A stretch of DNA of 64,000 nucleotides, from contig CAISYZ010000186.1 in assembly GCA_903889895.1 (NCBI GenBank), forward strand, positions 1 through 64,000, read 5' to 3'. Below are positions 23,501 to 46,232 of the stretch, piece after piece. Made by a program: the position numbers and the translations under genes. The notes beneath the pieces were generated by a model. The model saw only the letters and a list, made by a program, of their open reading frames with translations. It did not search any database and was not told where the DNA came from. Origin of the DNA: an uncultured Verrucomicrobia subdivision 3 bacterium (lineage in GTDB: Bacteria; Verrucomicrobiota; Verrucomicrobiia; Limisphaerales; UBA11358). Numbering within the stretch: position 1 is the first letter of the stretch; each line of letters opens with the position of its first letter.

Positions 23501-26500
23501 AGGAAGCTGATGCCCGCATCCGCATCGTGGTCAATCACGGTAGTCACGCTCGGCGCGGTAAGTTGCGCGCCAAGGCTCGGATTAAACAGGCCGACACTGA
23601 AGAACAAATCACCCGTCACAAGCGGATCATGGATGGTGGTGAGGGTGATGGACTTCACGGAATCACCGGGATTAAACGTCAGCAGTGCGTTGGTGACGCC
23701 AATGAAATTGGTGCCGGCCACCGCGGTGCCGTTGGTGGTGGAATAATATACCGTGGTCGTGCCATTGGTGTTGTTGAGGCGGATGACATTCAACACCACG
23801 GAACCATTCACCGTGCCGGAAGGCTCGGTGAAGCTGTTCGTCCCAAGCGCAAAGGCCAGGCCGACGTTGGTGTTGAGAATGGTCACCGTGGCATTGGTCG
23901 GCGTGGCCAACGAGGCACCGCCGGTCGGATTAAACAGGTTCACGTTCAGATATTCCGGCCCTTCCGCCGTGGCGGTGTTGACTGCCTGCACGACAAAGGA
24001 TTTGCTGGTCTCACCATCGGCAAAATTCAGCACGCCATTAGTTGAAAGATATTTCAGGCCGGAAACGGCCGTGCCGTCCTGCGTGTTGAAGCCCACCGAC
24101 ACCGTGCCATAGGAACCATAGGTGCGCTGGACGGTAACATAGGCCGCGGAATAGCCCACCCCACCACCTTCCGTGACGATGTAATTGGTGGCAATGAAAC
24201 TCAGCTGACCGGGGGCATTCACCGTGTCGATGATCGTCAGGGTTGCGTTCGTCGGCGTGGCCAGGACCGGCGGCGTCAGCGAAGAACCTGCGGGATTCGA
24301 CAATTGCAGACCAACGGTCTGATTCCCTTCCGGGATACCGTTGTTGTTGATCGGAATATTAACCGTGACATTCGATACTCCCGGGGCGAACGTCAGCACT
24401 GCATTCGTAGGGGCGTAATCCAGACCGATGGTGGCCGTGCCGTTGGTGGTCGTGGTAAAAAAGACCGAGGCCGAGCCGTTGATGCCGCCGTTGCGGGAAA
24501 CAGTGATCGGGGCCACGCCGTTGACGACATTCTTGGACACCGAATACGTGGCCGAGGAGAAGCTAATCGTCGAGTCGTCATTGGTGATATACAAGGTCGC
24601 AATGGGCTGGTCGCCGATTTCCGCCGGGGCCGTGGGGTTGGCCAGCGCGAGGTTGACCGTCAGGTTGGTCGTCACCACGCCGTCATCCATCACGGGAATC
24701 TTAAAGGTCTTGAGCACCTCGCCCAACGGGAAATCCAGCACATACGGGGACAGGTTGCTGTAGTTGACCCCGCCCACCGCCGAGCCGTCGGTGGCGTTGG
24801 CCGTAATGAACACGTCGCCTGAAGGCGCATTGCTGGTGCCGCCTGTGCGGATGACGGTGATGGTCACATTCGTGCCATCTTCATCCACGCCGTAATCCGA
24901 CGAAGAGAACTGGAAGGCGCCCGAACCGCTGATGGAGCCGCCATAAATCCGCGCAATATACGCATGCGGTGCGCCGTCATACTGGGTGAAACCGCCGGCG
25001 AGAATAATTTTTTCATCAGGCACATTGGTCGGATAGCCATTGATGGTGTCCTCCTGGATGGCCAGCGCCGCGACAAAGTTGTTAGCCCCGGTGCCGAAAT
25101 TGATGGTCGGATCCACCGAGCCATCGGGATTCAGGCGGGTGATGCGGTTACGGGTGACGCCACTGGCGGTGGTGAAACTGCCGCCGACCACAATGCGGTT
25201 GTTGCTCTGGATGGCCAAGGCAAGCACCGCGTCACTGGCACCGACCCCGGGATTGAAGGATGTATCCACCGAGCCGTCCGCATTCAGACGGGCGATGCGG
25301 TTGAACGCCACGCCGTTGACATTGGTGAACAAACCACCGATGACAATCTTGCCATCCAATTGCACCGCAATGGCCCGCACGGAACCGCTGGCTCCCGCAC
25401 CCGGATTGAAAGCCGTGTCCACCGAGCCGTCCACATTCAGACGGGCAATATGATTGAAGTTGGTCACGCCGTTATAGCTCGTGAAATCACCGCCGATGAT
25501 AATCCGACCATCCGGCTGCACCGCGAGAGCATAGACCGTGGCGTTCGCGCCCAAGCCGCCCGCGTTAAAGGTCGTGTCCGGCGGACCGCTCGCGGTCAGT
25601 TCCGCAATGCCGTTGAAGGTGTTGCCGCTGACCGTGGCAAAGGCCCCGCCGATGAGCACCTCGCCATTGACCGGCGATTGGGCGATGGCATAGACCGTGT
25701 TGTCCGCACCGGAGCCCGGCTGGAACAGGCTGTCGAGGGTGCCGTCATAATTCAACCGCGCGACATGGTTCAACACCACGCTGTTCACGTTGGTGAACAG
25801 ACCGCCAATGAGGATGCGCCCATCCGTCTGCACGGCAATGGCCCGCACCGAGCCGTTCGCGCCCATGGCGGAAGAAGGCAGGGAGAAGCCGGCATCAATG
25901 CTGCCATCCGCATTCAACCGCGCGATGTGATAGCGGGTGACGCCGTCCGCCAAGGTGAAGTCGCCGCCGGCCAGAATCTGGTTGTTCGGCTGGAGCGCGA
26001 GGGCATAAACGTTGTTGTTGAACCCGGCCGAGGAATCAAAGGTGATGTCCGAAGAACCTGGTGATTCCTCGACATTGAGCGTGTTGATGATGGTCAACGT
26101 GGCGGTGGCGGGGGAACCAAGATTGCTGCCGCCCAATTGCAGGGTGAGATTCAGCGGCGTGGCGTTGGTGTTGCTGTTGTTGATGATCGGCACAGTGAAA
26201 TACTGGCTCACCTGGCCGTTGGTAAAGATCATCGTGCCGGAATTGGTCTGGTAATCAATGCCGTTGACCGCCGTATTGTCCAGCGTCGTGAAAGTGTTGG
26301 TAATGGAACCGACGCTGCCACCGAGCCGCACCACCGGGATCAGCGCATAGCCGCCGTTTTTATTGACGGAATAGGCCGCCGTGCTGAACTGCACCGCGCC
26401 CGCCGAATCCACATTGTTGATGGTCAGGGTGGCATTGGTGCCGCCAAACGCCAGCAGCGTGCTGTTGTTGGTGCCATTGACCGTGGAATTGGTCAGGTAA

Positions 26501-29500
26501 ATGCCAGCCGTGAGGTTGGCCGTGACCACATGGTCGTCCAATACCGGAATCGCAATGGTCTGCGGCGAAGCGTTGCCGCTATTCCAAGTCAGGATATTGG
26601 TGGAACCGACGTAGTTGATGCCGTTGATCGCTGTTCCGTCGGTGGTGACCACGGTGACGCCGAGCGTGCCACTGCTGCTGCCGGCGCGGTTGACCGTGAC
26701 ATAGAGCACACGGGAATTTTCATTTGTGGCAAAATTAGCCTGAGCAAATTCCAGATGACCATATGAATTGCCATTCGGGTTGATGAGCGTCAGCACCGCG
26801 TTAGTCTGACCGATAGTGGCCCCGCCCGTCGCCCCAAACAGACTTAGGTTGACTGTCTTGTCCGGCTGAACCGAGGTGTATTTACTCTTGGTCGGGATGG
26901 TGAAAGAAGCGCTGCTCTGACCGACGGCAAAGGAAAGAAAATTGGTGCTGCCGGTATAATCCACTCCGTTCGTGGCCGTGCCGTTGCTGGTGGCATACCC
27001 GACCTGCACGGCAACCCCGGTGCCATTGGTGCGGGTAACCGTAATCGTGGCCGTGCTGCCATTTTCCACCACTGAATAAGCCAGCGCACTGTAACCCAGA
27101 ACCCCGGGCAGGGCGTTTACATCAATAATGGTCAACGGCGCGGACGCGCGCGCACCCAAGGCCGCGTCCAACTCAATAAACTCGCCGCCCAGCTTGAAAG
27201 TCGCGCCGGAGGGATTCGACAGCGAGAAGTCAGCGCTCAAATTGCCACTGATGTTGCCACTGTTGGTCACCGTGACATAGACATCCGCTGCCCGCGTAAT
27301 CAGCGGGGTGGTTTGAAAGTTTGGCCCATACACGCTCACCTCATACAGCCAAGCCGCCGCCGTCCAAGCTGTCCCCCAAGTCGGATCATCATAATTAGTG
27401 CTCAAACCAAAATCCGCACCGGTGGCCACGCCCGGACCAGCGGTGGCGGTGTTGGTCGAGAACGTCGCACTGGCAATGCCCAGGTTGCCATTGGTGCGGA
27501 TTAGCGAAACGTAAAGCGAGCCGGCACTGTTGTTAACCGAATACTGGTTGTAAAGAAATTCGATGTTCCCAGGTCCGGGTGTCGAACCACCCACCAACCG
27601 GGCCACATTGCTGCGAGGACGGATGTCATCCCGCGTATAACCGCCGCCGACGCGGTCAAAGGTGCCCCCGATAATCACATTCCCGCCGCTCTCCTCCGCC
27701 AGCGCATAAATGGCATTGCGCGTGTTATAATTGAGCGGATTGAGATAGGTATAGTTGGTGCCGACGGCATCGGGATTAAAATAGGCATTGGGCACGCCGG
27801 CCAAGGCATTGTAAGCTCCATCCATGAAGCTGGTGTCCACCGAACCGTCCGTAAATAGAAGCGCCAGCCCTTCACGCCGGGTCTGGTTGAATGTGGTCAG
27901 ATTGCCGGCGATGAGAATTTCACCATTTGTCTGGAGCAGCATGGCATAAATCGTGTCCGAGTCTCCCGTGATCGGATTCAACGTGCCCGTGCCGGGCGAG
28001 AAGGTCAAATCCAGCGTGCCATCCGTGTTCAGCCGGGCCAGACCATTGTAGTTGACCAGGTTGTAATAGGAGAAGGATCCGCCAATCAATATACGTCCAT
28101 CCGTCTGCACCGCGAGCGAATGGATGGTATCCGTGGCAAAAGTATCCGGATTAAAAGTGCCGATGCCCGGCGAGAAGGTCGTGTCGAGCGAACCATCCAC
28201 ATTCAAGCGCGCCACCGCGCCGCTGCTGACGCCGGCAACATTCTCAAACGCCCCGCCGATGAGGACGCGGCCGGAAGCATCGAGGGCAATCGCATTGACC
28301 ACGCCATCCGGACCGATGCCGGGATTGAAGGTGGTGTCCAGTGAGCCGTCCGCATTCAGACGGGCCACCCCCTTCACCATGTTGCCGTTGTAATTGGTAA
28401 ACGCACCAGCGATGTAAACCTGGCCGCTCGGGGCCAGTGCCACGGCCCAGACAATGCCATCCGCACCGGTGCCGGGATTGAAGGTGGCATCCAGCGAGCC
28501 ATCGGTGTTCAAGCGGGCGATGTAATGCCGATTGTTGCCATTGTAGGCGGTAAAATTACCGCCGATGATGATCTTGCCATCCGCCGGCTGCAGGGCCAGC
28601 GCGGCGATGAAATCATTCGGACCGGAACAGGCCGAGTTATACCACGGAGAAAAATCCCCCTGAAAGGCGGGGTCTTGAAAACCATTCGGCAGCAAACGAA
28701 CGATGCGGTTGTATTGCTGCTGGTCAAAGGTGGTAAAGCTGCCCGCAACGATGGCGTCGCCATTCGGCTGCTCGGCCACGGCATAGACCGTGCCGCCACC
28801 GCCGGCCGTGCCGGGAGAAGCCTGAAACGGCGGATTGGAGTCAGACACCCCGTTCTGATTCCAAGTGCGGTCCACCGCACCCGCCGGCTGCTGCCCGCCG
28901 TCGGTATCATTGAAAAGAATGGTCACATTCGCACGGTTGACCTGTCCGACCGTTTCATAGGTATGGGCAGACGGATCGGCAAAATAAATCCGGACGGAAA
29001 TATCCATGTTGAACTCCACCTGACCGTTGTCGAGGATGGGAATGGAAATGGTTTGTGGAGTCGTAACATTGGCGCCCCATGAAACCGTGCCACTGACCGG
29101 CGTAAAGTCAGTATTCGGGGTGGCATAGTCTGAACCAGCCTGCAGCGGAAAGGTGTCAGCCGGATTATAGCCAATGGTGCCCGTGGGGTCAGTGGTATAA
29201 TCTATGGAAACCGACTGCGCAAGATTTGGCGACGTGCTGCGCAACACGCTGATAACGGCGTTACCGCCGTTTACATCCTTATCTACGCGGAAAGTGGCGC
29301 GCTCCAAGTTAAGCGCATCCAAGCCGGCAGATGGATACCGCGTGCTTTCCACCGTCACCACAGTCTGGGTGATGGTGCCCAGCGTGGGCGGGATCAATGT
29401 GGACGGCTCCTGCGAATCCAAACGCGGGTTGGAAAGAATCAGATAAGGAGCGACAGCCGGGAGTTGCGTCTTGCCAATAAGACCCACATTTTGGGTCACC

Positions 29501-30729: not shown

Positions 30730-30779
30730 AAAATTATCTCCGATGTTTCCGGCGGCTCGGCCACCAAGGTTCATCTATA

Positions 30780-33800: not shown

Positions 33801-34348
33801 TTCGTGATGTTCGTGGCCGAGATGATGCACTGGCCAAGGCTGGTCAGGATATAAAACTGAAAACCGCCAAAATCAAAGACGTTGTTGTTATCAATCAGCG
33901 AATCCACACGGATGGTGCCCTGGTTGAAAAAGGAGCCGGCCATGAAGTTGTTGTTCAACGCCGGCGCCCAAGTGTCAAACTCAGCCTTCACGCCATAAAG
34001 GCTAAAAATAAATCCATTGGTATTCGGCGGACTGTTGAAGGTCATCAAGCCATTGGCACCATTGGTATAATCAATGGTGTTCTTGAATTCATACGGCACC
34101 GAAGTCTTGGTCGAATAGGTGGTGTAGGTGATGTTGAACTGGCTTTCGTTGTCAAAAATCGTGGCATCAATGATCGGCGGCGGGTTGCCAGGCACGGTGT
34201 AGGAACTATTGGCGAGGTTCTGGTAAATCGGATCCGTTGCCCGGACCGACTGGACGGAAAGCACAGCCAAGCCGGTAAGGCAAAGGGCATTTTTTAGCCA
34301 AACAGCCACGCTGGCAGAAGAATTATTTTTTGAGGCCATGCGGTTCAT
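30857..34348 (-). CDS. Large exported protein of unknown function
   Basis: The ATG at 34348 overlaps the upstream stop as ATGA, giving 1,163 residues; ATG at 34339 is an alternative. A signal peptide follows a short charged start (LKNALCLTGLAVLSVQSVRA). The body is rich in Asn, Thr, Gly and Ser and is almost certainly beta-structure, with repeated NLxLTNNGxIxAG-like strands that resemble a beta-helix passenger domain, but I recognise no named family. Near the C-terminus DLDPNGDGNSVAYDLAHG looks like a calcium-binding loop of the dockerin/type-3-thrombospondin kind. It ends with the C-terminal module shared with other exported proteins here (TVYYSTNSNGPWTVL...TRFYNVQV). Confidence 0.85.
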   Translation of the reverse strand: MNRMASKNNSSASVAVWLKNALCLTGLAVLSVQSVRATDPIYQNLANSSYTVPGNPPPIIDATIFDNESQFNITYTTYSTKTSVPYEFKNTIDYTNGANGLMTFNSPPNTNGFIFSLYGVKAEFDTWAPALNNNFMAGSFFNQGTIRVDSLIDNNNVFDFGGFQFYILTSLGQCIISATNITNPGDIVVGAEGLMQMTGQNVDLTRGVFTMESTLNANQGVVGTTLLDNVNFNSVGVAGLDTNGDWNPGLDLNANSALSSFVPISPYYLVLTNSTAYFSQRIQAGTGNVINRAVFVENNSPQAPYNVYIDEPGTINLGFEGGAAHVEWVGSSLDPSTGISTTNYLYLTDNYVFGASTNVAIIGGVPDNFSFVSSSTPLLVNPVTAGFQNIFTTANITNPYSYMNGQILATSVSTNVSDTNPHGTLTNLPARFMISASQELNLANAIIGGQNYLSLTATNQFDGSAGAQILSPYADLNLGVTNGFLTISNLLEANLPNWSGGIQAWSTRWIEVDPNTGLTNDFRVLLVYSQLQPTSVPWVQNLKVHCATNLVISDTLNVYSSLSIDAQQITLTTNIIGGGATSLDGELNWIGNGALGLSQLPNLSCLTNNGAIRAGANLANFIGQSSSVSITPGSPATTASGTLSKVGNVNLQKQAKVVIGTNQYVFVSQLVNKTANEVKLGSTLNGSISNLIAAINGAPGAGKIYSTATKSNLFVRAGALVGNSFTVTAAQTGAAGNAVPTTTTSARLTWNGHNTLFGGANAIPAVTNSSSFTVPYVAFINNGLVADQGTTLFADNFLSSGVITNGAGNFTANTLTTTLTNGAIYAGGNISLTADTLLMSNLTLQCLSLTLTPTNFIDAGLTNGNFWTVGSSSGTGGQGIDLAIKPPTGDLLGTTITNLAPGPNKAILNTWAGTNYGVSVQGYSNNMAIGHLLLSVQGPTSRMNFTGATGTNNALYVDLLEFTGYLTNGVTTSFEFTNWLNINTNLTIYFGDALINGVTVAEAIDKASIFSGKNHGRLRWVPGYAGYYSSVPFVSNGVTNLINSALWQSSDLDPNGDGNSVAYDLAHGLSPFFTPDQYNVSIGITNVPPLAMAITWNTIPNAMNTVYYSTNSNGPWTVLTNFTSPFSAPSAPQPVRFLDFGFLSDPTRFYNVQVNADLTWPVY

Positions 34349-36660
34349 TGGATTACAAGGGAATAGCTCCACTGCGCCGAGATGGACAGTGAATCGGTCA
34401 GGGTGAAAGTGACATCATATACCAGCGGACTGGGTGCTTGCCATACGGGGGTGCCGGAAAGGATGCCATCCGTGGACATCGTCAAGCCGGGCGGCAATCC
34501 AGAAGCCGACCAGGTGAACGGCGGCGTCAGACTGGTGCTAGTGGCAGAGAACTGCACTGGGCCATAAGGCACGCCATTAGTGCCATTGTCCAAGCTAGTG
34601 GGGGAAATCTGGGTCAACACTTGGCTGCCCAAATTATCGAGACTAGTGCCGTCCGGATAAATGACCGGAGCATTGGTGCTGTCATCGAAGGACGCCCAAG
34701 CCGCCGTGGGCACCTGCGTAGTCTCATCCACAATCGTGGGGATGGTGGTCAGGAACGGATTGGCTTCAAACCCATTGCGGAAAGTGTCCCCAATCTCATT
34801 ATAATCAAATACCGTGTTGGGTGTGATGACCCCCGGACCGGCCAACCCCGGCAAAACCTGGGACACGTCATAATTGATGTTACGGGTGACGGTGCCATTA
34901 AAGGTGTTGGCTACACCTTGATCCGTGGCCGTCAGCAGAATTTCCGGAGCCGCGACCTGACGGTCAAAATGCTGGGTATGCATGGCACCATTGGTAATCA
35001 CGACCATGGTATAGCTGTTGGTCTGCGGCTGCCAGAACTGGCCAATCAGCGAATCGTAGTCCACCCGGACAAATTGAACCTTGCCGATTCCTTGATACAA
35101 ACCAACGGCATTAGGCGTCTGCGCACAGGTCACCGGCAAGGTGACATAGGTGTAATTGGTATACCAAGTAATCAAGCTCTGCGAATAATTATAGGACGTG
35201 CTGTTGGTGGCAGTGACCACATTGGTGCTGGCCCCGGTGAGCAGGTTGGTGGTGTAAACCACACTCTTCTGCAAAGTATAAAGAATATCCACCGGACATT
35301 TATTGTTTCCGAGCAAAGGCAGGATATAAAAGCTGCCGGAGGGGACATTTTTCAATGTCACCTTAACCGTGTTGGTGGTGGTGACTGGCGGCGAGCCATA
35401 GGGCGCACCAATCTTTTGCGATGTCGTCACGGTTTGCAGCAGCGCCGGGGTATTGCTGGAGTAATAATTGGTCACAACATTGGCAAACGTGGTGATATAC
35501 TTTTGCAACGGATAATAGGAACGATTGGTAACGAGCAACAACGTCGGCGGTGTGCCGTATGGGGAACCCAACGGTGCCGCCACATAGGTGGCGGTGACGG
35601 TTGTGTTGGTGGCGAGAATCCAATAGTTTTGGGAACTGGTCACCACCAGGCCCGGATAATTGGTGGCCAGCGTGCCTGGATCATTAGTGGTGGATGCCAG
35701 ATAGAAGGAGTGAAAATCAAAAGTTCCGTAGCCCGTAACCGTGTTGGGGTTGACAGGAAATAATGTCTGCGGGCCGGCAATGTTGGTGCTGGCCGTGAAC
35801 AGCAGGCTACCGTTGGGCACCCGTTCCCGGTTCACATTGTTTGTGGAAAGGAGAAAGCCCCAACCGGCCACGTCGTCCCGGGTCAACCCGGTGTAGAAGC
35901 CACCCACTTGCAAACCACCAAATAGATCACCGTCATTGGAAGCCACGGCGTTGTAACCATCCGCCAGCGGATCGGCGGCAAAGGGCACCGTAAAGGCAAG
36001 GGGATTTGGACCAGTGCAATTCTCAATGATATAATAGGTATAAAGCACATCGTTGACATAGGATGAATACACAGCATGGCTTAGCAGGGAACTGGCAATA
36101 TCAAAATTACGCTGAACGACAAGATACTCCGTGGTCAATGGACAGCCCGGCGGAGCAAAGCGATCATGCAAAGTCCAAGTAAACCGCTCGGGCTGCGCCA
36201 AACCCATCTGCTCCACGAGCAGATGCAACGTCGCGGATTTCAAATCTGTCAAATACAGGGCGGTGGCCGTGGGATTCACATGCTGCGATTCCATCGGATA
36301 GGTGGACAAATTGAGTTTGTTTGCATTGGTGAGGTTATTCATGATGGCCACCGCACTGTCCACGGCCGCCACACCATTGGAACCGAAAAAGCCGAGGAAA
36401 TTAGCATCGCAGGAATAATAAATTACGGGGACATCGCGCCGATATCCTTGATCAAGGTTTTTGGGAGCACCGATATCGCCCAGATAAACCGGGCCGCCAG
36501 GAAAACCATAATCCAAGTAAGCGAGACCGTAGCCAATAACTACCGTCTGCCAGGCATCGCCGCCATTGCCCTGTGGCCCCAGCAAGGCAAAGCCCCAACT
36601 CGACTGCAGGCCGACCGCCAGCAGCACCATCCAGGAAAATCTTTTAATTGTTCGCAGCAT
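34345..36660 (-). CDS. Exported protein of unknown function with a C-terminal putative Ig (He_PIG-like) domain
   Basis: The ATG at 36660 (771 residues) is preferred because a typical signal peptide follows (KRFSWMVLLAVGLQSSWGFA); the frame extends upstream without one and would run into the previous gene. Residues about 25-330 form a conserved-looking globular part (QGNGGDAWQTVVIGYGLAYLD, PGGPVYLGDIGAPKN) that I cannot assign. The middle is Thr/Asn-rich. The end, LPPGLTMSTDGILSGTP followed by FTLTDSLSISAQWSYSL, is the hallmark of a putative-Ig He_PIG repeat. It sits 11 bp after the preceding gene and overlaps the next start by four bases. Confidence 0.82.
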   Translation of the reverse strand: MLRTIKRFSWMVLLAVGLQSSWGFALLGPQGNGGDAWQTVVIGYGLAYLDYGFPGGPVYLGDIGAPKNLDQGYRRDVPVIYYSCDANFLGFFGSNGVAAVDSAVAIMNNLTNANKLNLSTYPMESQHVNPTATALYLTDLKSATLHLLVEQMGLAQPERFTWTLHDRFAPPGCPLTTEYLVVQRNFDIASSLLSHAVYSSYVNDVLYTYYIIENCTGPNPLAFTVPFAADPLADGYNAVASNDGDLFGGLQVGGFYTGLTRDDVAGWGFLLSTNNVNRERVPNGSLLFTASTNIAGPQTLFPVNPNTVTGYGTFDFHSFYLASTTNDPGTLATNYPGLVVTSSQNYWILATNTTVTATYVAAPLGSPYGTPPTLLLVTNRSYYPLQKYITTFANVVTNYYSSNTPALLQTVTTSQKIGAPYGSPPVTTTNTVKVTLKNVPSGSFYILPLLGNNKCPVDILYTLQKSVVYTTNLLTGASTNVVTATNSTSYNYSQSLITWYTNYTYVTLPVTCAQTPNAVGLYQGIGKVQFVRVDYDSLIGQFWQPQTNSYTMVVITNGAMHTQHFDRQVAAPEILLTATDQGVANTFNGTVTRNINYDVSQVLPGLAGPGVITPNTVFDYNEIGDTFRNGFEANPFLTTIPTIVDETTQVPTAAWASFDDSTNAPVIYPDGTSLDNLGSQVLTQISPTSLDNGTNGVPYGPVQFSATSTSLTPPFTWSASGLPPGLTMSTDGILSGTPVWQAPSPLVYDVTFTLTDSLSISAQWSYSLVIQ

Positions 36661-36671
36661 ACAAATGATGT

Positions 36672-38753
36672 TTAGCGTAAAAGCAACACGTGATAATAAC
36701 CGACCGTGCCGCCCTTGATGAATATGGAATCGGTGTGGCCGGCCGCAAAGCGTGGCGAACCCACCGGCTGCCAAGTGGTGAAATTGGTAGTGACTTCAAC
36801 CTGATAAATCGCCCCGGGCTGGGTGTTCCAAGACAAATATTTGCCATTTTTTGTTTGTGAAATGGCGGCGGTCAGCCAAGTGCTGGAATCCTTCGGATTT
36901 CCCCCACTTAAATAAATCTGCTCCAAGGTAGGGCCTGTCTCACCAAGTCGGTCGCCGGCGGCCAGCCAGAGGTTCGTGGCACCCGATCCAAATTGTTCGA
37001 CCATCCATTCCCAAGGAATACTACCCCAGCTCAAACCGCTCCATGTCCTGCCTTGTGCCGCTGCCGAAACCGGCGAGTGCCGGCCATCATTCAAGACATA
37101 ACCCACCTGAAAAGTGTGCGTGCTGTTCGTGGTCAATCCATGAACCACCGACATCGTCCAGAGATTGCTCGTGACCAGCGCCAGCGGCGTGGCGGAGCCA
37201 TCCGCATAGACTTCAAAGTTGGCCACGGAAAGGCCCGGCAATGTCGGCCAAGAAACCTGCAATTCCGGCTGATAAATTCCCTTTGTCACCTTAAACGGCG
37301 CATAGACGTAGGGTTTGGCCAGCGGCTGTAACAAAGAGGTCACGTCCGCGTAACGCTGCGCATACAAATCAAAACCGTAGTTTAAACCAGTGTAACTCGT
37401 CCAGACCGCCACAAACTGGCTGCTGCCGTCCGAAGCCACCGCCGGTTCCATTTGCCGGCTGACGGTGGTGGTATTGACCGGCAGTTCTCCGCCGACCAGC
37501 GTGCCGTCACTATGGACAAACTGACCGAAGACGCCTTCGCGGGAACCATCTTGTCCCAGGCTCACCCACACCACAAAATACTCCTGATTGAGCGAACAGA
37601 TTCTCGGAGAATACTGGTCGCCGTATGTATAATTGTTAACCCGCACCACCGGACCAGCTACGGCGGCGTTGCTAAATGGGCGCGCAAAAATATCCCAGCC
37701 ATTGGTTTGGGTTACCGAATCATGCGCGGACCAGACGACCATGAAGCTGCCGTCCGCCGCCGTGGCCAAACCCGGGGTTGCGCAAGGGTTGGAATCAGTG
37801 TCCACCAGAAATTCATTGCCGACAGCCACGGCATTGCTTCGAAAAAGCCGGGCATAAACGTCCACGCTGGGCAGGGTCACGGCGCTGGCCGTTTGATAAA
37901 CCGTATTACTACCAAGCGAGGGAGCCGCGACCTGTTCCTGCTCGGAAATCCAAGCCACCACAAAACCGCCAGTCGCCAGCGCTGTCACCGCCGGGGTGCG
38001 TTGGTTGAAGTTGATAAACTGGTTGACCAAAAATTCGCCGCCAATCTTTTTGCCCGCCGGCGAAAACAATTGGCCATAGACATCCTGCAGGGAGTTTGAC
38101 TTGGCCTCATCGTAACTGCCCCACACCACTACGGCATTGCCATTGCTCAAAACAGCTACTGCCGGATTGATTTGGAAATTATTGGTGAAAGTATCCACCA
38201 GAATGTCGCTGGTTGTCGTAAACGTGTTGCTGGCCGTCAGAAAGCGGGCGTAGATGTGTTGGAAGCCCAGTTTGCCACCCTGCCAGACAAACACCGCTCC
38301 GCCGTTATTCAATAAGGCGACCCGGGCATTCTGCTGATCGTTCGAACCCTGCGCATTCACCCGGAAAGTTCCCAAGCTCGCCGAGAGCGTGCTGTTCAGC
38401 TGACTGGCGCTAACACCCCAGCCGGAGCCGTCGGTGATGTTGTCCTGCCAAACCACAAAGCCGCCAGAAGCCGAAAGCGCCACGTCGGGAAACATCTGGT
38501 CACCGGGCAACTGGCCGACAATGGCATATTCGGTGCCGTTGGTGCCGTAATAATTGGTTTGCGCAGAAGCGAAAAATGGCGACAACAAGCCGCAGGCAAA
38601 GCCTACAGCCAGCATTTGCGAACAAACAAGCGGCAAATTCATGAGGGCCGAGGAAAATAACCCATTCCGGCGGGTTTGTCTAAATTTTCCCGTCGTTGCC
38701 GCCGGCTGCTTTATCGCACCGGCCACTTTGTTAATCCAGCTTTGCAAATTCAT
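36672..38753 (-). CDS. Exported protein with seven propeller-like repeats
   Basis: The ATG at 38753 gives 693 residues and begins 2 bp after the exonuclease stop. The N-terminus is long and basic before a hydrophobic segment (SQMLAVGFACGLLSPFFASAQ), probably the signal peptide, cleaved near residue 65. Residues about 85-480 contain seven copies of a ~55-residue repeat of the form PAVAVLSNGNAVVVWGSYD...DVYGQLFSPAGKKIGGEFLVN; the Trp after VV and the DVYARxF strand recur in nearly all. Seven copies suggest one seven-bladed propeller. A fibronectin-like segment follows, then the C-terminal module IYQVEVTTNFTTWQPV...YYHVLLLR. Confidence 0.85.
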   Translation of the reverse strand: MNLQSWINKVAGAIKQPAATTGKFRQTRRNGLFSSALMNLPLVCSQMLAVGFACGLLSPFFASAQTNYYGTNGTEYAIVGQLPGDQMFPDVALSASGGFVVWQDNITDGSGWGVSASQLNSTLSASLGTFRVNAQGSNDQQNARVALLNNGGAVFVWQGGKLGFQHIYARFLTASNTFTTTSDILVDTFTNNFQINPAVAVLSNGNAVVVWGSYDEAKSNSLQDVYGQLFSPAGKKIGGEFLVNQFINFNQRTPAVTALATGGFVVAWISEQEQVAAPSLGSNTVYQTASAVTLPSVDVYARLFRSNAVAVGNEFLVDTDSNPCATPGLATAADGSFMVVWSAHDSVTQTNGWDIFARPFSNAAVAGPVVRVNNYTYGDQYSPRICSLNQEYFVVWVSLGQDGSREGVFGQFVHSDGTLVGGELPVNTTTVSRQMEPAVASDGSSQFVAVWTSYTGLNYGFDLYAQRYADVTSLLQPLAKPYVYAPFKVTKGIYQPELQVSWPTLPGLSVANFEVYADGSATPLALVTSNLWTMSVVHGLTTNSTHTFQVGYVLNDGRHSPVSAAAQGRTWSGLSWGSIPWEWMVEQFGSGATNLWLAAGDRLGETGPTLEQIYLSGGNPKDSSTWLTAAISQTKNGKYLSWNTQPGAIYQVEVTTNFTTWQPVGSPRFAAGHTDSIFIKGGTVGYYHVLLLR

Positions 38754-38755
38754 GT

Positions 38756-39634
38756 TCAAATCAATTCTGCCTGTTTTTCGCCGGGCACATCCAGCGCGGC
38801 GATCATGCCCTTGAAACCCCAGCTGGCAAACAGCCGACGCAACGCCGCCATGTCACCCGCCCGGACTGCCAGTTTATCCGGCGCAAATTCGCACGGCACA
38901 TCTGGCAACCGCACCAGCCGCTGGTTGCGCCGGAGGTTGTCCGCCGCTGCGTGCAACGCCTGTCGCAATTTTTCCGACTTTACTTCGCCTATCCGCGCCA
39001 GCAAATTTTCTACCGAGCCAAACTGTTTCAACAGTTCGGTGGCTGTCTTTGGCCCGACACCGGGCACGCCGGGGATGTTGTCCACCGCGTCGCCCATTAG
39101 CGCGAGCCAGTCAGCCACCTGCTCCGGAGGCACGCCGGTTTTGGCTAGCACCTGCCCGCATTCCCAAACTACTCCGGTCTTGTCGTTCGGGTTCAACAAC
39201 CCGATCTGCGCCGAGACCAACTGCATAAAATCTTTGTCGGAGCTGGCAATCACCACTTTCCAGCCCGACGCCGCCGCCGCCCGAGACAGGGTGGCGATGT
39301 AGTCATCCGCCTCGACACCGTCCTCCCGCAGGCTAGCTATTCCTGCCGCCGCCAAATAATCCGCAATCCCGTCCAACTGCGACCGCAAATCCGCCGGCAT
39401 GGGCGGTCGCTGCGCCTTATAATCAGGCAGTTCGGCCAGCCGCTCCGCACTCAACCCACCATCCCAGACAACCATCAAATGCGATGGAGCCACAGCCTGC
39501 CGCATTTTTTCGAGCATTTTGACGAAGCCGTAAATGGCATTCGTCGGCTGCCCAGCGGGCGAACGCAACTCGCGGATGGCGTGAAACGCCCGATACGCGT
39601 AGGCGTGCCCGTCAACAATCAGTAGCCGGCTCAC
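38756..39634 (-). CDS. Stand-alone 5'-3' exonuclease (PolA N-domain type)
   Basis: This 292-residue FEN-like nuclease corresponds to the 5' nuclease domain of DNA polymerase I without the polymerase. Visible are LLIVDGHAYAYRAFHA, VVWDGGLSAERL...YKAQR, the metal-binding GVEADDYIAT and ASSDKDFMQLV, and the helix-hairpin-helix GDAVDNIPGVPGVGPKTA. All expected Asp ligands appear present. Such enzymes remove 5' flaps or RNA primers. Its start overlaps the preceding secretin fragment by four bases (ATGA), and the next exported protein starts 2 bp after its stop. That is an odd place for a DNA-repair gene. Confidence 0.93.
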   Translation of the reverse strand: MSRLLIVDGHAYAYRAFHAIRELRSPAGQPTNAIYGFVKMLEKMRQAVAPSHLMVVWDGGLSAERLAELPDYKAQRPPMPADLRSQLDGIADYLAAAGIASLREDGVEADDYIATLSRAAAASGWKVVIASSDKDFMQLVSAQIGLLNPNDKTGVVWECGQVLAKTGVPPEQVADWLALMGDAVDNIPGVPGVGPKTATELLKQFGSVENLLARIGEVKSEKLRQALHAAADNLRRNQRLVRLPDVPCEFAPDKLAVRAGDMAALRRLFASWGFKGMIAALDVPGEKQAELI

Positions 39635-40290
39635 TCTTGGACCACCGGCGGCGGAATTTTCTGCACGCTTTCCGTCACCTTGCCGGCACCGGCGGGCTGG
39701 GATGGAATCGTGCTCTGAGCAAACGGCAAATCGTCATCGGTGTGAACCCGGTTGCCCGCCGGGTCAACAATCGTAGCGGTGACAAAAATCATCAGATTTT
39801 TTTTCTGGGTGGACTTGCTCTGGCTTTGAAAAAAGCGCCCCAACATCGGCAGATCACCGATGACCGGCAGCTTGTCCTTCGTGGACTGCACTTCCGAAGA
39901 AATTAAGCCGCCAAGCACCACGGTCTGGTTGTCCCAGACATTCACCGTGGTCACCACCTGACGAACGGTGAAGTCTGGAAGGATCACCGGCAACTGCACC
40001 ACATTCAAGTTGCCCGTGACACTGGGAATCGTCGGGGGCGTATCGTAGCCATTGAACACGGTCACCGATGGGATCAGCGACATGTTGATGGTATAACCAT
40101 CAGATAAAACATACGGAACCACATCCAGGATCGGTCCGGTTTCCACCGGCTGGGTGATGAAGGTGATAGCCGAGGTGCCAGGATTGATTTGTTGAACCTG
40201 GGCATTCAGGGAAGACGCCCCCATCAGCCCGCCTGCCACCAGCCCGGCAACCGCCAGCCGGGAAAATTGTTTGGATGAATTTTTTTTCAT
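39631..40290 (-). CDS. pilQ: Split secretin, C-terminal part with its own signal peptide
   Basis: This encodes 219 residues. Residues 1-31 form a clean signal peptide (SRLAVAGLVAGGLMGASSLNAQ). The rest is the C-terminal part of a type II/IV secretin: TGPILDVVPYVLSDGYTIN, FTVRQVVTTVNVWDNQTVVLGGL, and the terminal signature VIGDLPMLGRFFQSQS...KKNLMIFVTATIVDPAGN. These strands form the membrane-spanning barrel/gate and oligomerisation region. The N-terminal secretin domains end at 40311 in the preceding ORF, 20 bp upstream. Either the outer-membrane channel assembles from two separately exported chains, or the gene is disrupted. Confidence 0.88.
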   Translation of the reverse strand: MKKNSSKQFSRLAVAGLVAGGLMGASSLNAQVQQINPGTSAITFITQPVETGPILDVVPYVLSDGYTINMSLIPSVTVFNGYDTPPTIPSVTGNLNVVQLPVILPDFTVRQVVTTVNVWDNQTVVLGGLISSEVQSTKDKLPVIGDLPMLGRFFQSQSKSTQKKNLMIFVTATIVDPAGNRVHTDDDLPFAQSTIPSQPAGAGKVTESVQKIPPPVVQE

Positions 40291-40310
40291 ATAGTCTCGC
40301 TATAAAAAGT

Positions 40311-42584
40311 TTACGGAACGGTTCCACCGGCGGCACCAGTTTGAGCCGCTGTTCCCTGCTGGAAATTGACACTTGTAATAACGGTGATTACCTGGGTGGC
40401 GCGCATCTGAGTCTGGCGTCCGCTGGTCGTCGTGATTTCGGGTTCTGCCAACGATTCATAACCGCTGCGCTGCTCCAGGGCGTGAATAACCATCCGGAAA
40501 TTCGGATCGGTCAGGATGCCGGTAATCGTCGCCACCGTGGGTGCAGAATTGCGCAGCCCGCTGGTTAACATTTGATCTGTGGCTGCACCGGCAATCAGAT
40601 TGGCTGCCGTGTTGCCCGGAAATGCCCCCAAAGGATTTGCCGCCGTAACCGGCACGTTGAGGGAAGGCGCGGTGCCAGCCTGACCGACCACCGAGCCGTT
40701 ACCGCTCATGTTGAATTGGCCAAGATACCAATCGAAACCCAAAGCCTTGTTGTCATCCTGTTCCACTTCGATGAAGCGCGCCTTAATATGAACCTGTGGA
40801 GCGACTTCATTCAGCATCTCAATGGCGCGTTCAATCGTATCCAAATCCTGCTCGGTAGCTTTCACGAAAAGTTTGCCTAGGCGGTCGTTGAAAAAAACCG
40901 CCTTCCCCGGTGGATTCATCAGATTTACACCCAAAGCTGTGAAATAGGCGCGAGCCGCCGCGCTAACCGTGGAAGCAAGCGTGATTTGGGTAATGTAGTT
41001 GATACCGCCTTGGCCACCCACACCACCGCCACCACCGGCACCAGTTGTGCCAGCATTGAGCGGATTAATAGCACCATTCTGCCCACCGCCGCCGCCACCA
41101 CCACCACCGCCGCCGCTACCCGTGTTGCGCAGCCCACCAGCGCCAGCAAAGGCGTTAACCACACCAATAACCGCACCGTTGTTTTGATTGTTGCCACCAC
41201 CACCGCCGCCGCCGCCACCACCGCTGCTGCCACCACCAGAGTTATTTATGGCACCAAAGCTTGAAGAGCTAACGCTCTCTAGGCCGGAATAAAATGTGTT
41301 CGGATCGACTTTAAAAATGCGGGTGAACAGCTGTGGCGACTCGGCACCTTTGGAGGAGAATACTACGGCAAAATCCTGCACCGTGTATTTTATCGGATGA
41401 TCGGCCACCATTACAATCGCATCCAAAACATCCGCCAGCCGCACATCCGACAAATTGGGAATCTTGACAATGAAAGAGCCGACATCAACCGCCTCGCCAC
41501 CAGCGGCAGGTGCCGCATTGGCCTGCGGTAAACCGGTAGCCGGATCAATGGCCGGAGCCGCGGCCGGAGCGCCAGGCAAACCTAGTCCGCCACCTAAACC
41601 GTTGCCCGCCGGGGCGGCTATTTCCGGACCGGATTGATCTGGATTCGGGTTGATAAGGAAATTGATACCTTTGCGTTCCGGATCACGCAACCGTGATTGT
41701 TCAGAGAGATTGCGCAACACTTCGCTCAACGGCAAACCATCGAAGGAAACCGTGTCCAGCCGGATATGATCCAACTTGGCCATGATGGCCTGCCGGCCGG
41801 GCCCAGTATAAATCAATGTGTTCGTGGCGTAAGGATTGCCTGCCACGAGGTTGTTCTTATTGGAAGGCAGAATCCAATGTTTCTCCACGTCGGCCATGCG
41901 CACTTGGGTGTCTTCCGTGTGCATCGCGGCTTCACGTGCGAACTTGGCCTGTTGAATAAGATTCAAATAATATGAAGCCGCACCATTGTCAGGATCCAGC
42001 AAGAGCGCCTGGTTCAACTTGGCCTCGGCATCCTCCAGTTTACCCATTTCGTAAAGCAGCTTCCCGTCTTGAACCATGGTCTTGGCGTCCAGCTTCTGGC
42101 TGGCAATCTGTGGCATCTGCTCCATCACCGCTGCGCTGGGAATGCGCCCCTTGTTGGCGGCCAGCATCTGATCATTTTGCTTCTTGAAAGCCAGCGCCTC
42201 GGCGTGTTGGGGTGCAACTTTCAACACCTGCTGCACTTGCGTGGCAGCTTCGCGCAAATCCCCGTGGCTCTGCGCATCCCGCGCCAAGGCCAGCCGCGTG
42301 GCCGCAAGACCATTGATGGCTTGGGCATTTTCAGCGTCAATGCCGGAACCGATTTGCTGCGCCAGTTCGCAGGACTCCTGATAAAGCTTCGCGGCAGCCA
42401 CGGTCTCGCCGGACTGAGCGGCATGGCGCGCGTCAGCGAGCTTTTGGCGCAACACAATGGTGTTGGCCTGACGTAACACGGCTTCGTTGACCGCCGTGGC
42501 GGTGGGGCTATCCTGGGCTGGCGCGATTGCGGGCAAGGCAAGCAAGGCGGCAAGACCGAGGAAAAGAATGGCGGCTTTAGTCAT
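40311..42584 (-). CDS. pilQ: Split secretin, N-terminal part (TPR plus secretin N-domains, Gly-rich loops)
   Basis: This 757-residue protein has a signal peptide (1-23), a TPR-containing periplasmic region (about 30-240), a short secretin N-domain (about 270-315, VSFDGLPLSEVLRNLSEQS), two long poly-Gly loops (about 446-470 and 489-530), and the beginning of the secretin domain (IKARFIEVEQDDNKALGFDW, EPEITTTSGRQTQMRATQVITVIT). It stops at 40311 where the secretin would normally continue to its conserved C-terminal strands. The architecture and gene neighbours match the Amuc_1098-type secretin of Verrucomicrobiota, the outer-membrane pore of a type IV pilus-like machine. It is the fourth gene of the pilus-type cluster, 52 bp after the previous one. 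Confidence 0.9.
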   Translation of the reverse strand: MTKAAILFLGLAALLALPAIAPAQDSPTATAVNEAVLRQANTIVLRQKLADARHAAQSGETVAAAKLYQESCELAQQIGSGIDAENAQAINGLAATRLALARDAQSHGDLREAATQVQQVLKVAPQHAEALAFKKQNDQMLAANKGRIPSAAVMEQMPQIASQKLDAKTMVQDGKLLYEMGKLEDAEAKLNQALLLDPDNGAASYYLNLIQQAKFAREAAMHTEDTQVRMADVEKHWILPSNKNNLVAGNPYATNTLIYTGPGRQAIMAKLDHIRLDTVSFDGLPLSEVLRNLSEQSRLRDPERKGINFLINPNPDQSGPEIAAPAGNGLGGGLGLPGAPAAAPAIDPATGLPQANAAPAAGGEAVDVGSFIVKIPNLSDVRLADVLDAIVMVADHPIKYTVQDFAVVFSSKGAESPQLFTRIFKVDPNTFYSGLESVSSSSFGAINNSGGGSSGGGGGGGGGGNNQNNGAVIGVVNAFAGAGGLRNTGSGGGGGGGGGGGQNGAINPLNAGTTGAGGGGGVGGQGGINYITQITLASTVSAAARAYFTALGVNLMNPPGKAVFFNDRLGKLFVKATEQDLDTIERAIEMLNEVAPQVHIKARFIEVEQDDNKALGFDWYLGQFNMSGNGSVVGQAGTAPSLNVPVTAANPLGAFPGNTAANLIAGAATDQMLTSGLRNSAPTVATITGILTDPNFRMVIHALEQRSGYESLAEPEITTTSGRQTQMRATQVITVITSVNFQQGTAAQTGAAGGTVP
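41030..41260 (-). repeat. GGN triplet tracts coding poly-glycine in the secretin
   Basis: Runs of glycine codons at about 41029-41043, 41083-41118 and 41194-41242 encode three poly-Gly stretches, the longest of ten to eleven residues, separated by Asn/Ala-rich sequence. On the plus strand they appear as CCACCACCGCCGCC tracts. They sit in a periplasmic loop and could vary in length by slippage without changing frame. Confidence 0.8.
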
Positions 42585-42636: not shown

Positions 42637-43422
42637 TCAGGGGGCAAATGGCAAAGCAGATTTTTTCTGGTTGGACTGATCCATCAAAACCAACTCATTC
42701 TGGCTAACCTCAGAAACGAGGAAATCCGTGAAATTAAACGAAACTTTTGTCCCCACCCGGCAATTGTGAAAAACTTTTTTCTCCGGGTCATAGCGAAAAT
42801 CAGCCATGTAACCGTCCACGCGCCGAAACGGTTTGTCGCGCAACACCGTCACGGTCTCGCCCGAATCCGCCAAATTGATGAGCACAGAGTCGGGATTCTC
42901 TGGCGCGCCTATCACATCCACCAGCGTGAACATGTCATTCTTGTCGCCCTTGGAAACAAAACGCTGCTGCTTATGCCGCTTGGCCAGCGTGGCGGCAGCC
43001 TGTCGTTCCACACCGATGACATAGCGCGCACCAGCCTCGTTGGTCGTAGCTGAATCCAATGTTAGGACCAGATACAGCGGGACGATGTTCGTCACCACCG
43101 CCACTTGTGGGCCAACGCTGGTATCTTTCTTAACGATGCGATTATCCAAAGTTTTCTGCCACTGAAACGGATTGAACAGCTTGTTGCCGGTTTCCAAATC
43201 CAACACAAAGGGCGATTGCAACCGCGTCATCGCGGCGCCATTGGTCGTCAAATCCAAATCCGGCAGCGCCTTGGCGGGAGGATTAATCAGCCCATTCGCT
43301 GCGTCATCCATCGCCTGCTTGTCCGACGCAATGTAAAACAGCATGAACACCAGCACGCCAATCAGACCCGCCAGCACAATGCCCAGCAAAATCTTTTCGT
43401 AATGTTTTTTGAAAAATTGCAT
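42637..43422 (-). CDS. Amuc_1099-like pilus-cluster inner-membrane protein (positional PilP analogue)
   Basis: This encodes 261 residues. One transmembrane segment at about 11-31 (ILLGIVLAGLIGVLVFMLFYI) is followed by a periplasmic domain containing LFNPFQWQ, LTLDSATTNEAGARYVIGVE and a C-terminal small beta-domain (KVSFNFTDFLVSEVSQNELVLMD). No named domain is obvious. Assignment rests on position between the Amuc_1100-like gene (1 bp upstream) and the secretin (52 bp downstream), the same order as in Akkermansia. It probably links the inner-membrane complex to the secretin. Confidence 0.75.
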   Translation of the reverse strand: MQFFKKHYEKILLGIVLAGLIGVLVFMLFYIASDKQAMDDAANGLINPPAKALPDLDLTTNGAAMTRLQSPFVLDLETGNKLFNPFQWQKTLDNRIVKKDTSVGPQVAVVTNIVPLYLVLTLDSATTNEAGARYVIGVERQAAATLAKRHKQQRFVSKGDKNDMFTLVDVIGAPENPDSVLINLADSGETVTVLRDKPFRRVDGYMADFRYDPEKKVFHNCRVGTKVSFNFTDFLVSEVSQNELVLMDQSNQKKSALPFAP

Positions 43423-43423
43423 T

Positions 43424-44377
43424 TTAACTCTTAGGCAACAGTTTCACCAAACCGACTTCCAGTGAGACGCGGAGAACCTGCTCCTTCAAAATCGTCTGCA
43501 AACCGCCCTTGCCCGCCGTCGGTTGGACCGGAGCCGTCGGAGCCGGCATCATCCCCGGTTGCATCATCCCCGGCGGCAACAGCGCCCCCGGCATGCCGCC
43601 CGGCTGCATCCCAGCATCCGTCGGCGCGGCGAAGGCGGAGGATCCCGCTGGCTGGACATTGATGGACTTGATCAAAAACGTATTTGACGAAGTCGCAAAC
43701 GCGCCGATCACATGAGAAAGTTCGGGTGTGAAGCAACGGAAGGTAACAACATAGGGAGTTATCACGGCCAAGTCATTGGTGACCGGACGTTCGTCAATGT
43801 AATCGCCCGGCGAGCCTGCCGCATCGTCCGGCGAAACGCGCACCCGTTGGATACCATCCAAAGCATTCACGCGTGCGGAAAAGACAGTATCTGCTATGGC
43901 CTTGACCTCGCCCAACTGCTCCGCCAATGGACTCAGGCTACCGTCAGCGAATTTCACCAAGGTGCGCTGGGCCGAAAATGAAAAATCATATTTCGGAGGC
44001 AGCATCACGCCTGCATCATCAGCCTCATGTTGCAAGACATCAATCGTGCGACGCAGCGCCCCGGCGTAGGTTTCACTGCTGACATTGTCCGCCGGAATGG
44101 CCGGGATGGATTGAAAATAATTCCGCGAGGAAGCGATCCAAGCGCGCACCTGCTGCTCCTGATCCTTGGCGATTTTGGTATTGTCCACCTTCTCGTTTCC
44201 TGGTGACGGCTGTTGCTGCTGCAGATTTTTTAACGTGCCATAAATCTCGTTGAGCTTGTCGGCCGCGTCGGAGTTGCGGGTCCAATCCTTGTAGATGTAA
44301 AAACCGCCCGCGCCGAGCAACGCCAAGGTGACAACGCCGCCAATCACGATGAAAAGATTTCGTTTGATCCAGCCCAT
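43424..44377 (-). CDS. Amuc_1100-like PilO/PilN-type membrane protein
   Basis: This protein has 317 residues, the same length I recall for Akkermansia Amuc_1100. A transmembrane helix at about 8-28 (LFIVIGGVVTLALLGAGGFYIY) is followed by a coiled-coil segment (about 33-60) and a PilO-like alpha/beta periplasmic domain. A Pro/Gly/Met-rich linker (about 252-285, GGMPGALLPPGMMQPGMM) and a last strand (KEQVLRVSLEVGLVKLL) complete it. The order TM, coiled coil, domain, Ala/Pro linker, final strand parallels Amuc_1100. It should sit in the inner membrane with the PilM-like protein, whose gene ends 1 bp upstream. Confidence 0.8.
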   Translation of the reverse strand: MGWIKRNLFIVIGGVVTLALLGAGGFYIYKDWTRNSDAADKLNEIYGTLKNLQQQQPSPGNEKVDNTKIAKDQEQQVRAWIASSRNYFQSIPAIPADNVSSETYAGALRRTIDVLQHEADDAGVMLPPKYDFSFSAQRTLVKFADGSLSPLAEQLGEVKAIADTVFSARVNALDGIQRVRVSPDDAAGSPGDYIDERPVTNDLAVITPYVVTFRCFTPELSHVIGAFATSSNTFLIKSINVQPAGSSAFAAPTDAGMQPGGMPGALLPPGMMQPGMMPAPTAPVQPTAGKGGLQTILKEQVLRVSLEVGLVKLLPKS

Positions 44378-44378
44378 A

Positions 44379-46232
44379 TCAAAAATTAAGCGGGTTGAGC
44401 GGCATCACGTTCACGGTGAAAGTGAAAGTTCCGGTGGTTTCGTCCGGCACAATGTTTCCGACCAGCGACGTCGCCTTCGGATCAACCAGCGGTGAAGACT
44501 TGATTTCATTTTCCACCGCGTAGGCAATTTCACTGTCCGGCGCATCTACGCCGACAAGCCTGACGGCGCGGCATACTAACGTAATCACGGCGTTTGTATT
44601 GCCCGCAACTGCAGCCTGACCAGCGTCACCTGCCGGCGGCGGCGAGATGGCTGGCAGCATACCGGGCATACCGGGCATACCCGGCGGCGGCGGAGCACCC
44701 ATGCCGGGCATGGGAGCACCTAGGTTGGCACCGACAGCCGCAGTTCCTAGGTTGGCCGCTGATGTCATGGATTCAATCCAGATACCAACATCTACGCCCG
44801 CCTTTTCGGAGGCGAGCTTTTTCTGAATATCCGCTTCCGACCGAATCAGGGCGCGGCGCATTTCCGCAAGAAAATCGCCCCAATAATACCGCTGCTGCAA
44901 CCACGATAGCAGCTTGCCAGCTTCTGCTTGAGACTTCTGAAGTTTTTTGTAGGCACCATTGAACCGGTCCATCTTGGCATTCAACTCCGCCACCTTGGGA
45001 TTAAGCCGGTCAATTTCCGTCTCTTTGTTGACCGCCAGTTTCTGGAACAAAAAACCGACACCGAAGGCGACCAGCACCAGGCTGATGACCGTGGCGATAA
45101 AATAAGGCTTTTTCTGGTTGAAAGACTGCCAGCGCAGCGTGCTCTCCGGCATCAAATTCATTTCCACCGGACACGTCGCCAGATTCCGCAAGCCGAGGCC
45201 GACGACTTCGCCCAAGCCGTGTGCGACACGCGAAAGCGCTTCGAGATCCACCGCCGGATCAATCTGCACATTGCGGAATGGATTGAAATATTCCACCGGC
45301 ACGTTCAATTTTTCGGCGAAAAACTGCGCCGTGTAAGGCATGATGCTCGCACCACCGGACAGGAACAGGCGCTGTGGCTTGGTGCCGCCCTGCTGGCCGG
45401 TGTAAAACTGCATCGTCTGATTGACTTGGATATGCAGTTTGGTCATGAACTGCCGCGCGATTTTCGAGATGGCCGCCTGATGCGGATTCTCCGGCTCTTC
45501 ATAGGCGCCGCCTAGGCTGACAAAGCCTTCCGCGATTTTAATTTTTTCCGCCTCGTCAAATTTTAACTTCGACTCATTGGCAAAATCCTGCGTGATGATG
45601 TTCGCGCCCAGGTTAATGCTGCGGGAGAAAACTTTACCCTTCTCAAAGAACAGCAGGTTGCTCGTCTTCGCGCCGATGTCGAGCAGCATGGTGCAGTCTT
45701 CAAGGTCGGGATAATTGTAGCGGAAAGAATTGCACAGCGCGGCCGGCGAGGCGTCGCACAACTGTAATTTTAATTTGGCCTGGTCAGCCACGCGGAAAAG
45801 CCCCTCGACGATTTCCGACTTGATGGCGACGAGCAGCACTTCCAACTCGCCGCTCGCAGCCGAGCCGAGAATTTGGTAATCCCAAACCACTTCGGAAAGC
45901 GGAAACGGCACGTTCTGCTGCGCCTCGTATTGAATGATCTGGCCGACCTTGGCGGCATCCACCGGCGGCAGTTTTACAAACTTGGAAAAGACATGAAAAC
46001 CGGGCGCGCAGACGTTGACGCTCTTCGCCTTGAGACCTTTTTCCGCCAGCACTTCCTGTAGTGCCTGCAAAATGGTCTTCTCACGGGTGGCCTCCTGCGA
46101 ACCTTCCAGGCCGAGCGGCTTGATGGCAAAATTCTTCAGCAGCAAACCGCCTGACTCGTTGATTTCAAACTCGGCCAGCTTGAGGCTACCGGCTCCGAAA
46201 TCAACCGTCAAAAATGACTTGGTGTTCAGCAT
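44379..46232 (-). CDS. pilM: PilM-PilN-like fusion, type IV pilus assembly protein
   Basis: This 617-residue protein combines an actin-like PilM part (about 1-350) with a PilN-like membrane part. The actin-like ATP-binding motifs are FLTVDFGAGSLKLAEF, MLLDIGAKTSNLLFF and RLFLSGGASIMPY; the pilus-type KLPPVDAAKVGQIIQYEAQQ is also clear. A transmembrane helix at about 375-397 is followed by a coiled coil (ETEIDRLNPKVAELNAKMD) and a Met/Pro/Gly-rich linker (MPGMGAPPPPGMPGMPGM). The final domain, VRLVGVDAPDSEIAYAVENE, resembles PilN. Normal PilM is about 350 residues and cytoplasmic, so the fusion anchors it. It is the first gene of the 35-kb run and is divergent from the acylphosphatase gene across 166 bp with no convincing promoter. 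Confidence 0.9.
   Translation of the reverse strand: MLNTKSFLTVDFGAGSLKLAEFEINESGGLLLKNFAIKPLGLEGSQEATREKTILQALQEVLAEKGLKAKSVNVCAPGFHVFSKFVKLPPVDAAKVGQIIQYEAQQNVPFPLSEVVWDYQILGSAASGELEVLLVAIKSEIVEGLFRVADQAKLKLQLCDASPAALCNSFRYNYPDLEDCTMLLDIGAKTSNLLFFEKGKVFSRSINLGANIITQDFANESKLKFDEAEKIKIAEGFVSLGGAYEEPENPHQAAISKIARQFMTKLHIQVNQTMQFYTGQQGGTKPQRLFLSGGASIMPYTAQFFAEKLNVPVEYFNPFRNVQIDPAVDLEALSRVAHGLGEVVGLGLRNLATCPVEMNLMPESTLRWQSFNQKKPYFIATVISLVLVAFGVGFLFQKLAVNKETEIDRLNPKVAELNAKMDRFNGAYKKLQKSQAEAGKLLSWLQQRYYWGDFLAEMRRALIRSEADIQKKLASEKAGVDVGIWIESMTSAANLGTAAVGANLGAPMPGMGAPPPPGMPGMPGMLPAISPPPAGDAGQAAVAGNTNAVITLVCRAVRLVGVDAPDSEIAYAVENEIKSSPLVDPKATSLVGNIVPDETTGTFTFTVNVMPLNPLNF

Follow-up and report, generated by a model that had tools for sequence, protein, structure and literature searches.

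Does the operon around Amuc_1100 of Akkermansia muciniphila have a true counterpart in a lineage outside that genus, and what should be made of the fact that the secretin of this counterpart is encoded by two genes? We addressed these questions in a stretch of 64,000 nucleotides (hereafter the window) from an uncultured bacterium of the order Limisphaerales, which belongs to the phylum Verrucomicrobiota. The source genome is a 4.14 Mb bin that is 76% complete and also encodes PilB/PilT-type (T2SSE family) ATPases. The gene order proposed in the first-pass annotation, a PilM-like fusion followed by a 317-residue PilO-like protein and a periplasmic protein with one transmembrane (TM) helix, is present between positions 46232 and 42637 of the minus strand:

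44379..46232, minus strand: PilM-like fusion of the Amuc_1101 family, 617 aa, with matches to NCBIfam Amuc_1101_fam, PilM TIGR01175 and Pfam PilM_2; cytoplasmic PilM domain, one TM helix, coiled coil and periplasmic domain
43424..44377, minus strand: Amuc_1100 homologue (PilO-like), 317 aa, recognized through NCBIfam, hhalign, an AlphaFold model and Foldseek
42637..43422, minus strand: one-TM periplasmic protein in the place of Amuc_1099 / PilP, 261 aa

The three open reading frames abut, and the secretin comes next. The order and reading frames of the trio are kept in dozens of relatives (about 45-85% protein identity within the genus), and the arrangement is therefore far beyond chance. The annotation was also right that a secretin follows, but the single gene it assumed turned out to be two, at 42584-40311 and 40290-39631.

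The PilM-like fusion matches the Amuc_1101 family (NF045709) with an E-value of 9.6e-143 and 477 bits over residues 1-462, covering the PilM part and the TM region; this score falls below the equivalog cut-off of 650 bits. The matches to PilM TIGR01175 (143 bits, above its cut-off) and Pfam PilM_2 (133 bits) agree in kind. The 317-residue protein aligns over its full length with the Amuc_1100 family (NF038287; E 1.1e-17, residues 1-315 with profile positions 1-325 of 326); since its 64.5 bits are under the equivalog cut-off of 180 bits, by sequence it is an Amuc_1100 homologue rather than a certified equivalog. An hhalign comparison of the window's family with the Akkermansiaceae-type Amuc_1100 gave 99.7% and an E-value of 1.6e-25 over 306 columns (1-317 with 1-310). 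In the structure predicted by AlphaFold (pLDDT 83.7) the protein has the same fold as Amuc_1100: the ten best Foldseek matches in the PDB are Amuc_1100 chains (E 3e-9 to 2e-8; TM-score by target length 0.70-0.78), followed by PilO. The suspected likeness to Amuc_1100 thus extends past the TM helix in both the profile and the structure comparison. PDB searches with the single sequence or with genus or order profiles did not find Amuc_1100, which was found by the family profile, hhalign and the structure comparison. The locus that we take as Akkermansia muciniphila (L183) was recognized by its 1100 protein, which matches PDB entries 6lad and 6kny over the whole length with an E-value of 1e-183.

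For the third member of the trio the resemblance is more limited. Residues 1-75 of the 261-residue protein align with Amuc_1099 in hhalign (E 5.8e-8); beyond the N-terminal 70 or so residues, the periplasmic part gives no significant alignment to Amuc_1099. The NCBIfam Amuc_1099 family (NF042425) does not match the protein up to an E-value of 1, and Pfam scans detect no domain in it and no match to PilP. By position the protein corresponds to PilP in pilMNOPQ. The designation of the three genes as an Amuc_1099/1100/1101-like trio is well founded for 1100 and 1101, on profiles, hhalign and the model, and weaker for 1099.

The trio does lie outside Akkermansia, as the annotation pointed out, but this is no peculiarity of the window. 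Amuc_1100-family matches occur in 302 of the 388 sampled genomes of the phylum (36 above the cut-off), C-terminal parts of Amuc_1098-type secretins are likewise found in 302 of the 388 at an E-value of 1e-20, and homologues of the secretin Amuc_1098 in other Verrucomicrobia have already been reported (PMC4960237). From these two distributions we conclude that the trio is the ordinary, phylum-wide pilMNOPQ-like core of the Verrucomicrobiota. The same gene order is seen in those loci of the genus and of other families of the order whose neighbourhoods could be read. One record bears the title Akkermansia muciniphila (CAMCWI010000059.1), but its operon is of the Limisphaerales type and in the tree it clusters with a second locus of our set, L149; it is probably a misnamed bin. 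Placing the window in an environmental lineage is reasonable, as its nearest named relatives are metagenome bins of Limisphaerales / Verrucomicrobia subdivision 3, several of them labelled bog or carrying codes like those of lake surveys. The phylum-wide spread, the conserved gene order and the ATPases in the genome indicate that the ancestral role of the Amuc_1100 operon was very probably that of a pilus machine part. Its occurrence throughout the phylum, environmental lineages included, argues that Amuc_1100 was first a PilO-like part of this machine and that its effect on the host is secondary.

The secretin region, all of it on the minus strand, reads as follows:

40311..42584, minus strand: secretin N-terminal chain, 757 aa, with a signal peptide, TPR, the N domains and the start of the secretin domain as far as the gate loop, of which it contains the first half; Amuc_1098_fam 228 bits and a weak match to PF00263 positions 1-43 of 169
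40291..40310, minus strand: 20-base gap between the secretin genes, where the reading frame changes
39631..40290, minus strand: secretin C-terminal chain, 219 aa; PF00263 positions 41-169 (96 bits), Amuc_1098_fam profile positions 663-804
40201..40290, minus strand: predicted signal peptide of the C-terminal chain, MKKNSSKQFSRLAVAGLVAGGLMGASSLNA before Q, with features common to the 30 tabulated C halves
38756..39634, minus strand: 5'-3' exonuclease-like gene, named from its sequence, directly downstream of the C chain with a 4-base overlap

The two chains match complementary parts of both PF00263 and the Amuc_1098 profile. Their best stretches on the Amuc_1098 family secretin profile (NF042912), 14-383 and 663-804 of 805, assign the pair to this family, with whole-chain scores of 228 bits (N) and 124 bits (C) against a cut-off of 750 bits. 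The single polypeptide with N domains and barrel that characterizes NF042912 is replaced by two genes, each with a signal peptide; the C-terminal chain begins with its own predicted one and continues with the remainder of the secretin domain. Long glycine-rich stretches precede the N3-like domain of the N chain (window positions 40900-41300, minus strand). Among the neighbours, the exonuclease-like gene is conserved and stands outside the machine. Two open reading frames of 695 and 809 aa (34345-38759, minus strand), the latter without a match in a Pfam scan, have relatives in 59 and 55 of the 80 named loci around the operon, and for this reason may belong functionally to the pilus or secretion system. 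A few genes downstream of the secretin, an open reading frame of 5497 aa (14281-30774, minus strand) contains many Calx-beta and DUF5122 beta-propeller repeats; this giant putative surface protein is possibly a cargo.

Where does the break fall within the secretin fold? In an HMM built from fused secretins, the stretch before the interrupted loop aligns with ...GQEVPVLTGSQTTSGDN... of PulD (residues 455-470 as counted from the printed alignment), and the start of the loop coincides with LTG at PulD 461-463. In XcpD, residues 466-496 make up the central gate, which is flanked by two strands and two pivot glycines and has its tip at 477-480 (PMC10550240). For pIV, glycines 267 and 297 delimit gate 1, in which residues 275-289 are disordered (PMC8563730). 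Judged by the alignment, the break sits within the central gate loop. All sequences of the fused alignment have the glycine that precedes the return strand (GPxLDV). The first pivot glycine of type II secretion system (T2SS) secretins is not conserved here in the HMM alignment, and the gate assignment therefore rests on the alignment and the place of the loop. In a model of a fused sibling, whose best PDB matches are secretins (pLDDT 65, which is modest, for a monomer), strands at 201-212 and 241-261 flank a disordered segment, 217-236, at the site of the break.

The two-gene form is not confined to the window. A search of 59 related genomes found a short separate frame for the secretin C part in about half of the genus, and junctions read in 78 distinct loci were split in 30 and fused in 48. 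After a search of 245 genomes of the order the tally rose to at least 49 distinct split and 64 distinct fused loci, numbers that come from a chosen set and not a random draw, and so give no frequency. In G034, whose genome is 94% complete, the split gene is the sole strong secretin match. The break always lies in one Gly/Thr-rich loop, and fused siblings keep a Gly/Asn/Thr-rich loop whole at that place. Across the first 30 split loci every C half begins with ATG, 14-39 bases past the N stop (208 in one case), and the C gene is found in all three frame relations to the N gene; each C half has a charged n-region, a hydrophobic stretch and an A-x-A-like site ahead of the mature start. Later split loci were read less strictly, the automatic C start being too early or absent in some, but their printed C halves show a stretch that resembles a signal peptide and ends in AQ or the like. 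The N tail and the mature C head of the 30 split loci add up to 35-49 residues (median 39), and the fused loops of the 78-locus set measure 34-47 (median 37); in some of the loci read later the N tail is longer and reaches as many as 45 residues, leaving aside the Peptidase_S74 cases described below.

Beyond the order the split form was checked in 388 genomes, among the matches listed. G123, from another family of the phylum, seemed to have a split, which proved to be a contig end, as did the short frames of G301 and G129. One further short frame outside the order, of 348 aa in G416, could be either a genuine split or a contig end. L251 and L255 are contig ends as well.

We consider it probable, with good though not full confidence, that both chains are exported and assemble together into a single channel with free ends in its gate loops. 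The operon in the window would then be a Verrucomicrobiota pilMNOPQ-like unit composed of a PilM-N fusion (Amuc_1101), a PilO-like protein (Amuc_1100), a protein in the PilP place (Amuc_1099) and a secretin of the Amuc_1098 type. The N chain, exported by its own signal peptide, would contribute the periplasmic domains, together with the initial strands of the secretin domain, and stop midway through the gate loop. The C chain, exported by the second signal peptide, would begin in the second half of the loop and add the remaining strands. Through strand pairing the two would fold together into a normal double-walled outer-membrane multimer, in which each gate consists of two free ends in place of a closed loop. 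The cargo would be a type IV pilus or a related filament. The fuller reading, a natural two-chain secretin that arose repeatedly in one bacterial order and whose free-end loops gate differently, is in our estimate evenly poised between true and false.

The history of the split bears on this reading. On a tree of the flanking genes of 96 loci, the split and fused states require at least 14 changes, 11 of which are forced by well-supported branches. Split loci make up part of the window's genus and of two further family-level groups (f16 and f136) and occur singly in three more (f119, f126 and f19), in each case beside fused relatives; a split locus from yet another group (L242, f123) was left out of this tree. 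At least six family-level groups within the order thus contain the split. The nearest relatives outside the genus are fused; within it, the loci that branch off deepest have the split form, and the fused ones are nested among them. A tree of the secretin domain alone groups most of the genus's fused alleles together, which suggests re-fusion followed by exchange between species, in a direction that the counts cannot prove.

Three loci point to how a loop may have been opened. In L232, L234 and L239 the N chain runs past the loop into a domain with an SDRN.K motif, which Pfam recognizes as Peptidase_S74 in L232 (E 6.8e-12) and L239 (E 2.2e-13); L234 is assigned by the motif only. Peptidase_S74 domains are self-cleaving chaperones: they help phage tail spikes to assemble as trimers and release themselves by cleavage at a serine. 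By analogy, the mature N chain of these loci might end in the loop again after self-cleavage, hinting that a domain of this type at the gate loop is one route to loop opening.

The most serious alternative explanation is that the two-chain secretin works exactly like the one-chain form, the split being tolerated because the loop is disordered, with gating unchanged. We give this possibility slightly less than an even chance. Repeated switching between the two states on the operon tree and the clustering of fused alleles, as if they had been exchanged, are what one would expect if it were correct. On the other hand, the split persists through most of a diverse genus and recurs in other families, which suggests more than accident, although this is no proof of a benefit.

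If the chains had instead parted ways, one would act alone or with another secretin, and the other would be an independent protein of the periplasm or a regulator. Several genomes (G005, G020, G024, G031 and others) encode an additional Amuc_1098-like secretin, which is unsplit and about 1000-1300 aa long. It could share the work there, and nothing more direct speaks for this explanation; against it, the halves are complementary and do not overlap, the loop remnants sum to one loop, the genes stay adjacent, and close relatives have the fused form in the same operon, as illustrated by the window and its close sister L054, one split and the other fused. We regard it as unlikely.

A broken gene, through decay of a dispensable channel or an error of metagenome assembly, is more improbable still. 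Those records that carry names are of metagenome-assembled genomes, and the second secretin of some relatives is of the same type; however, many different assemblies, contributing at least 49 distinct loci, have the split in the same loop, always with an intact second open reading frame whose signal-peptide-like start is seen in no fused relative. The C half is also under strong constraint in several pairs: of the seven closest pairs with usable dS, four have a dN/dS of 0.07-0.16, and the other three, at low dS, have 0.37-0.82. Least credible of all is a continuous protein made by frameshifting or stop read-through at the junction, since the genes, within tens of bases of each other and probably co-transcribed, stand in all three frame relations across species, and the joined product would hold a signal peptide within its gate loop.

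The two-chain channel remains our preferred reading, and its interest lies in how secretins are commonly viewed. The type II, III and IV systems are held to have secretin rings built from a single unbroken chain, with a gate loop that closes off the outer membrane. When a lineage cuts this chain at the gate again and again, with the channel still under selection, it provides a natural experiment on secretin assembly and gating, for which the closely matched uncut siblings serve as controls.

Compared with Amuc_1098-1101 of Akkermansia muciniphila, the window has the same gene order (1101-1100-1099-1098) and the same families for 1101, 1100 and 1098, and the two Amuc_1100 proteins are both 317 aa long with matching predicted folds. 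The 1099-like protein of the window, in contrast, is shorter than that of Akkermansia and demonstrably related to it only at the N-terminus, and the Akkermansia secretin is one protein of 907 residues whereas that of the window consists of two chains. With the pilMNOPQ genes of type IVa pili and with GspD / XcpD of the T2SS the window shares the operon logic, the relationship to PilM and PilO, the secretin fold and the place of the gate loop; the solved secretins described in PMC10550240 and PMC8563730 have single-chain subunits with a continuous gate loop, unlike the split subunit proposed here. Our literature search for split or heteromeric secretins found only the RhcC1/RhcC2 case, the type III secretion secretin of rhizobia and some Pseudomonas syringae (PMC3574062, PMC3973906), which like that of the window is encoded by two genes. 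In strain NGR234, RhcC1 (NolW) contains only N0 and Secretin_N, and RhcC2, identified by its place between a response-regulator gene (the y4xI/ttsI place) and the next gene (the y4xK place), contains a complete PF00263 (1-169). The window does not have this type of cut between N domains and a whole barrel domain. The rhcC genes lie apart in their cluster and encode N domains separated from an intact barrel, whereas the secretin genes of the window are adjacent and the cut between them divides PF00263 itself, into 1-43 and 41-169.
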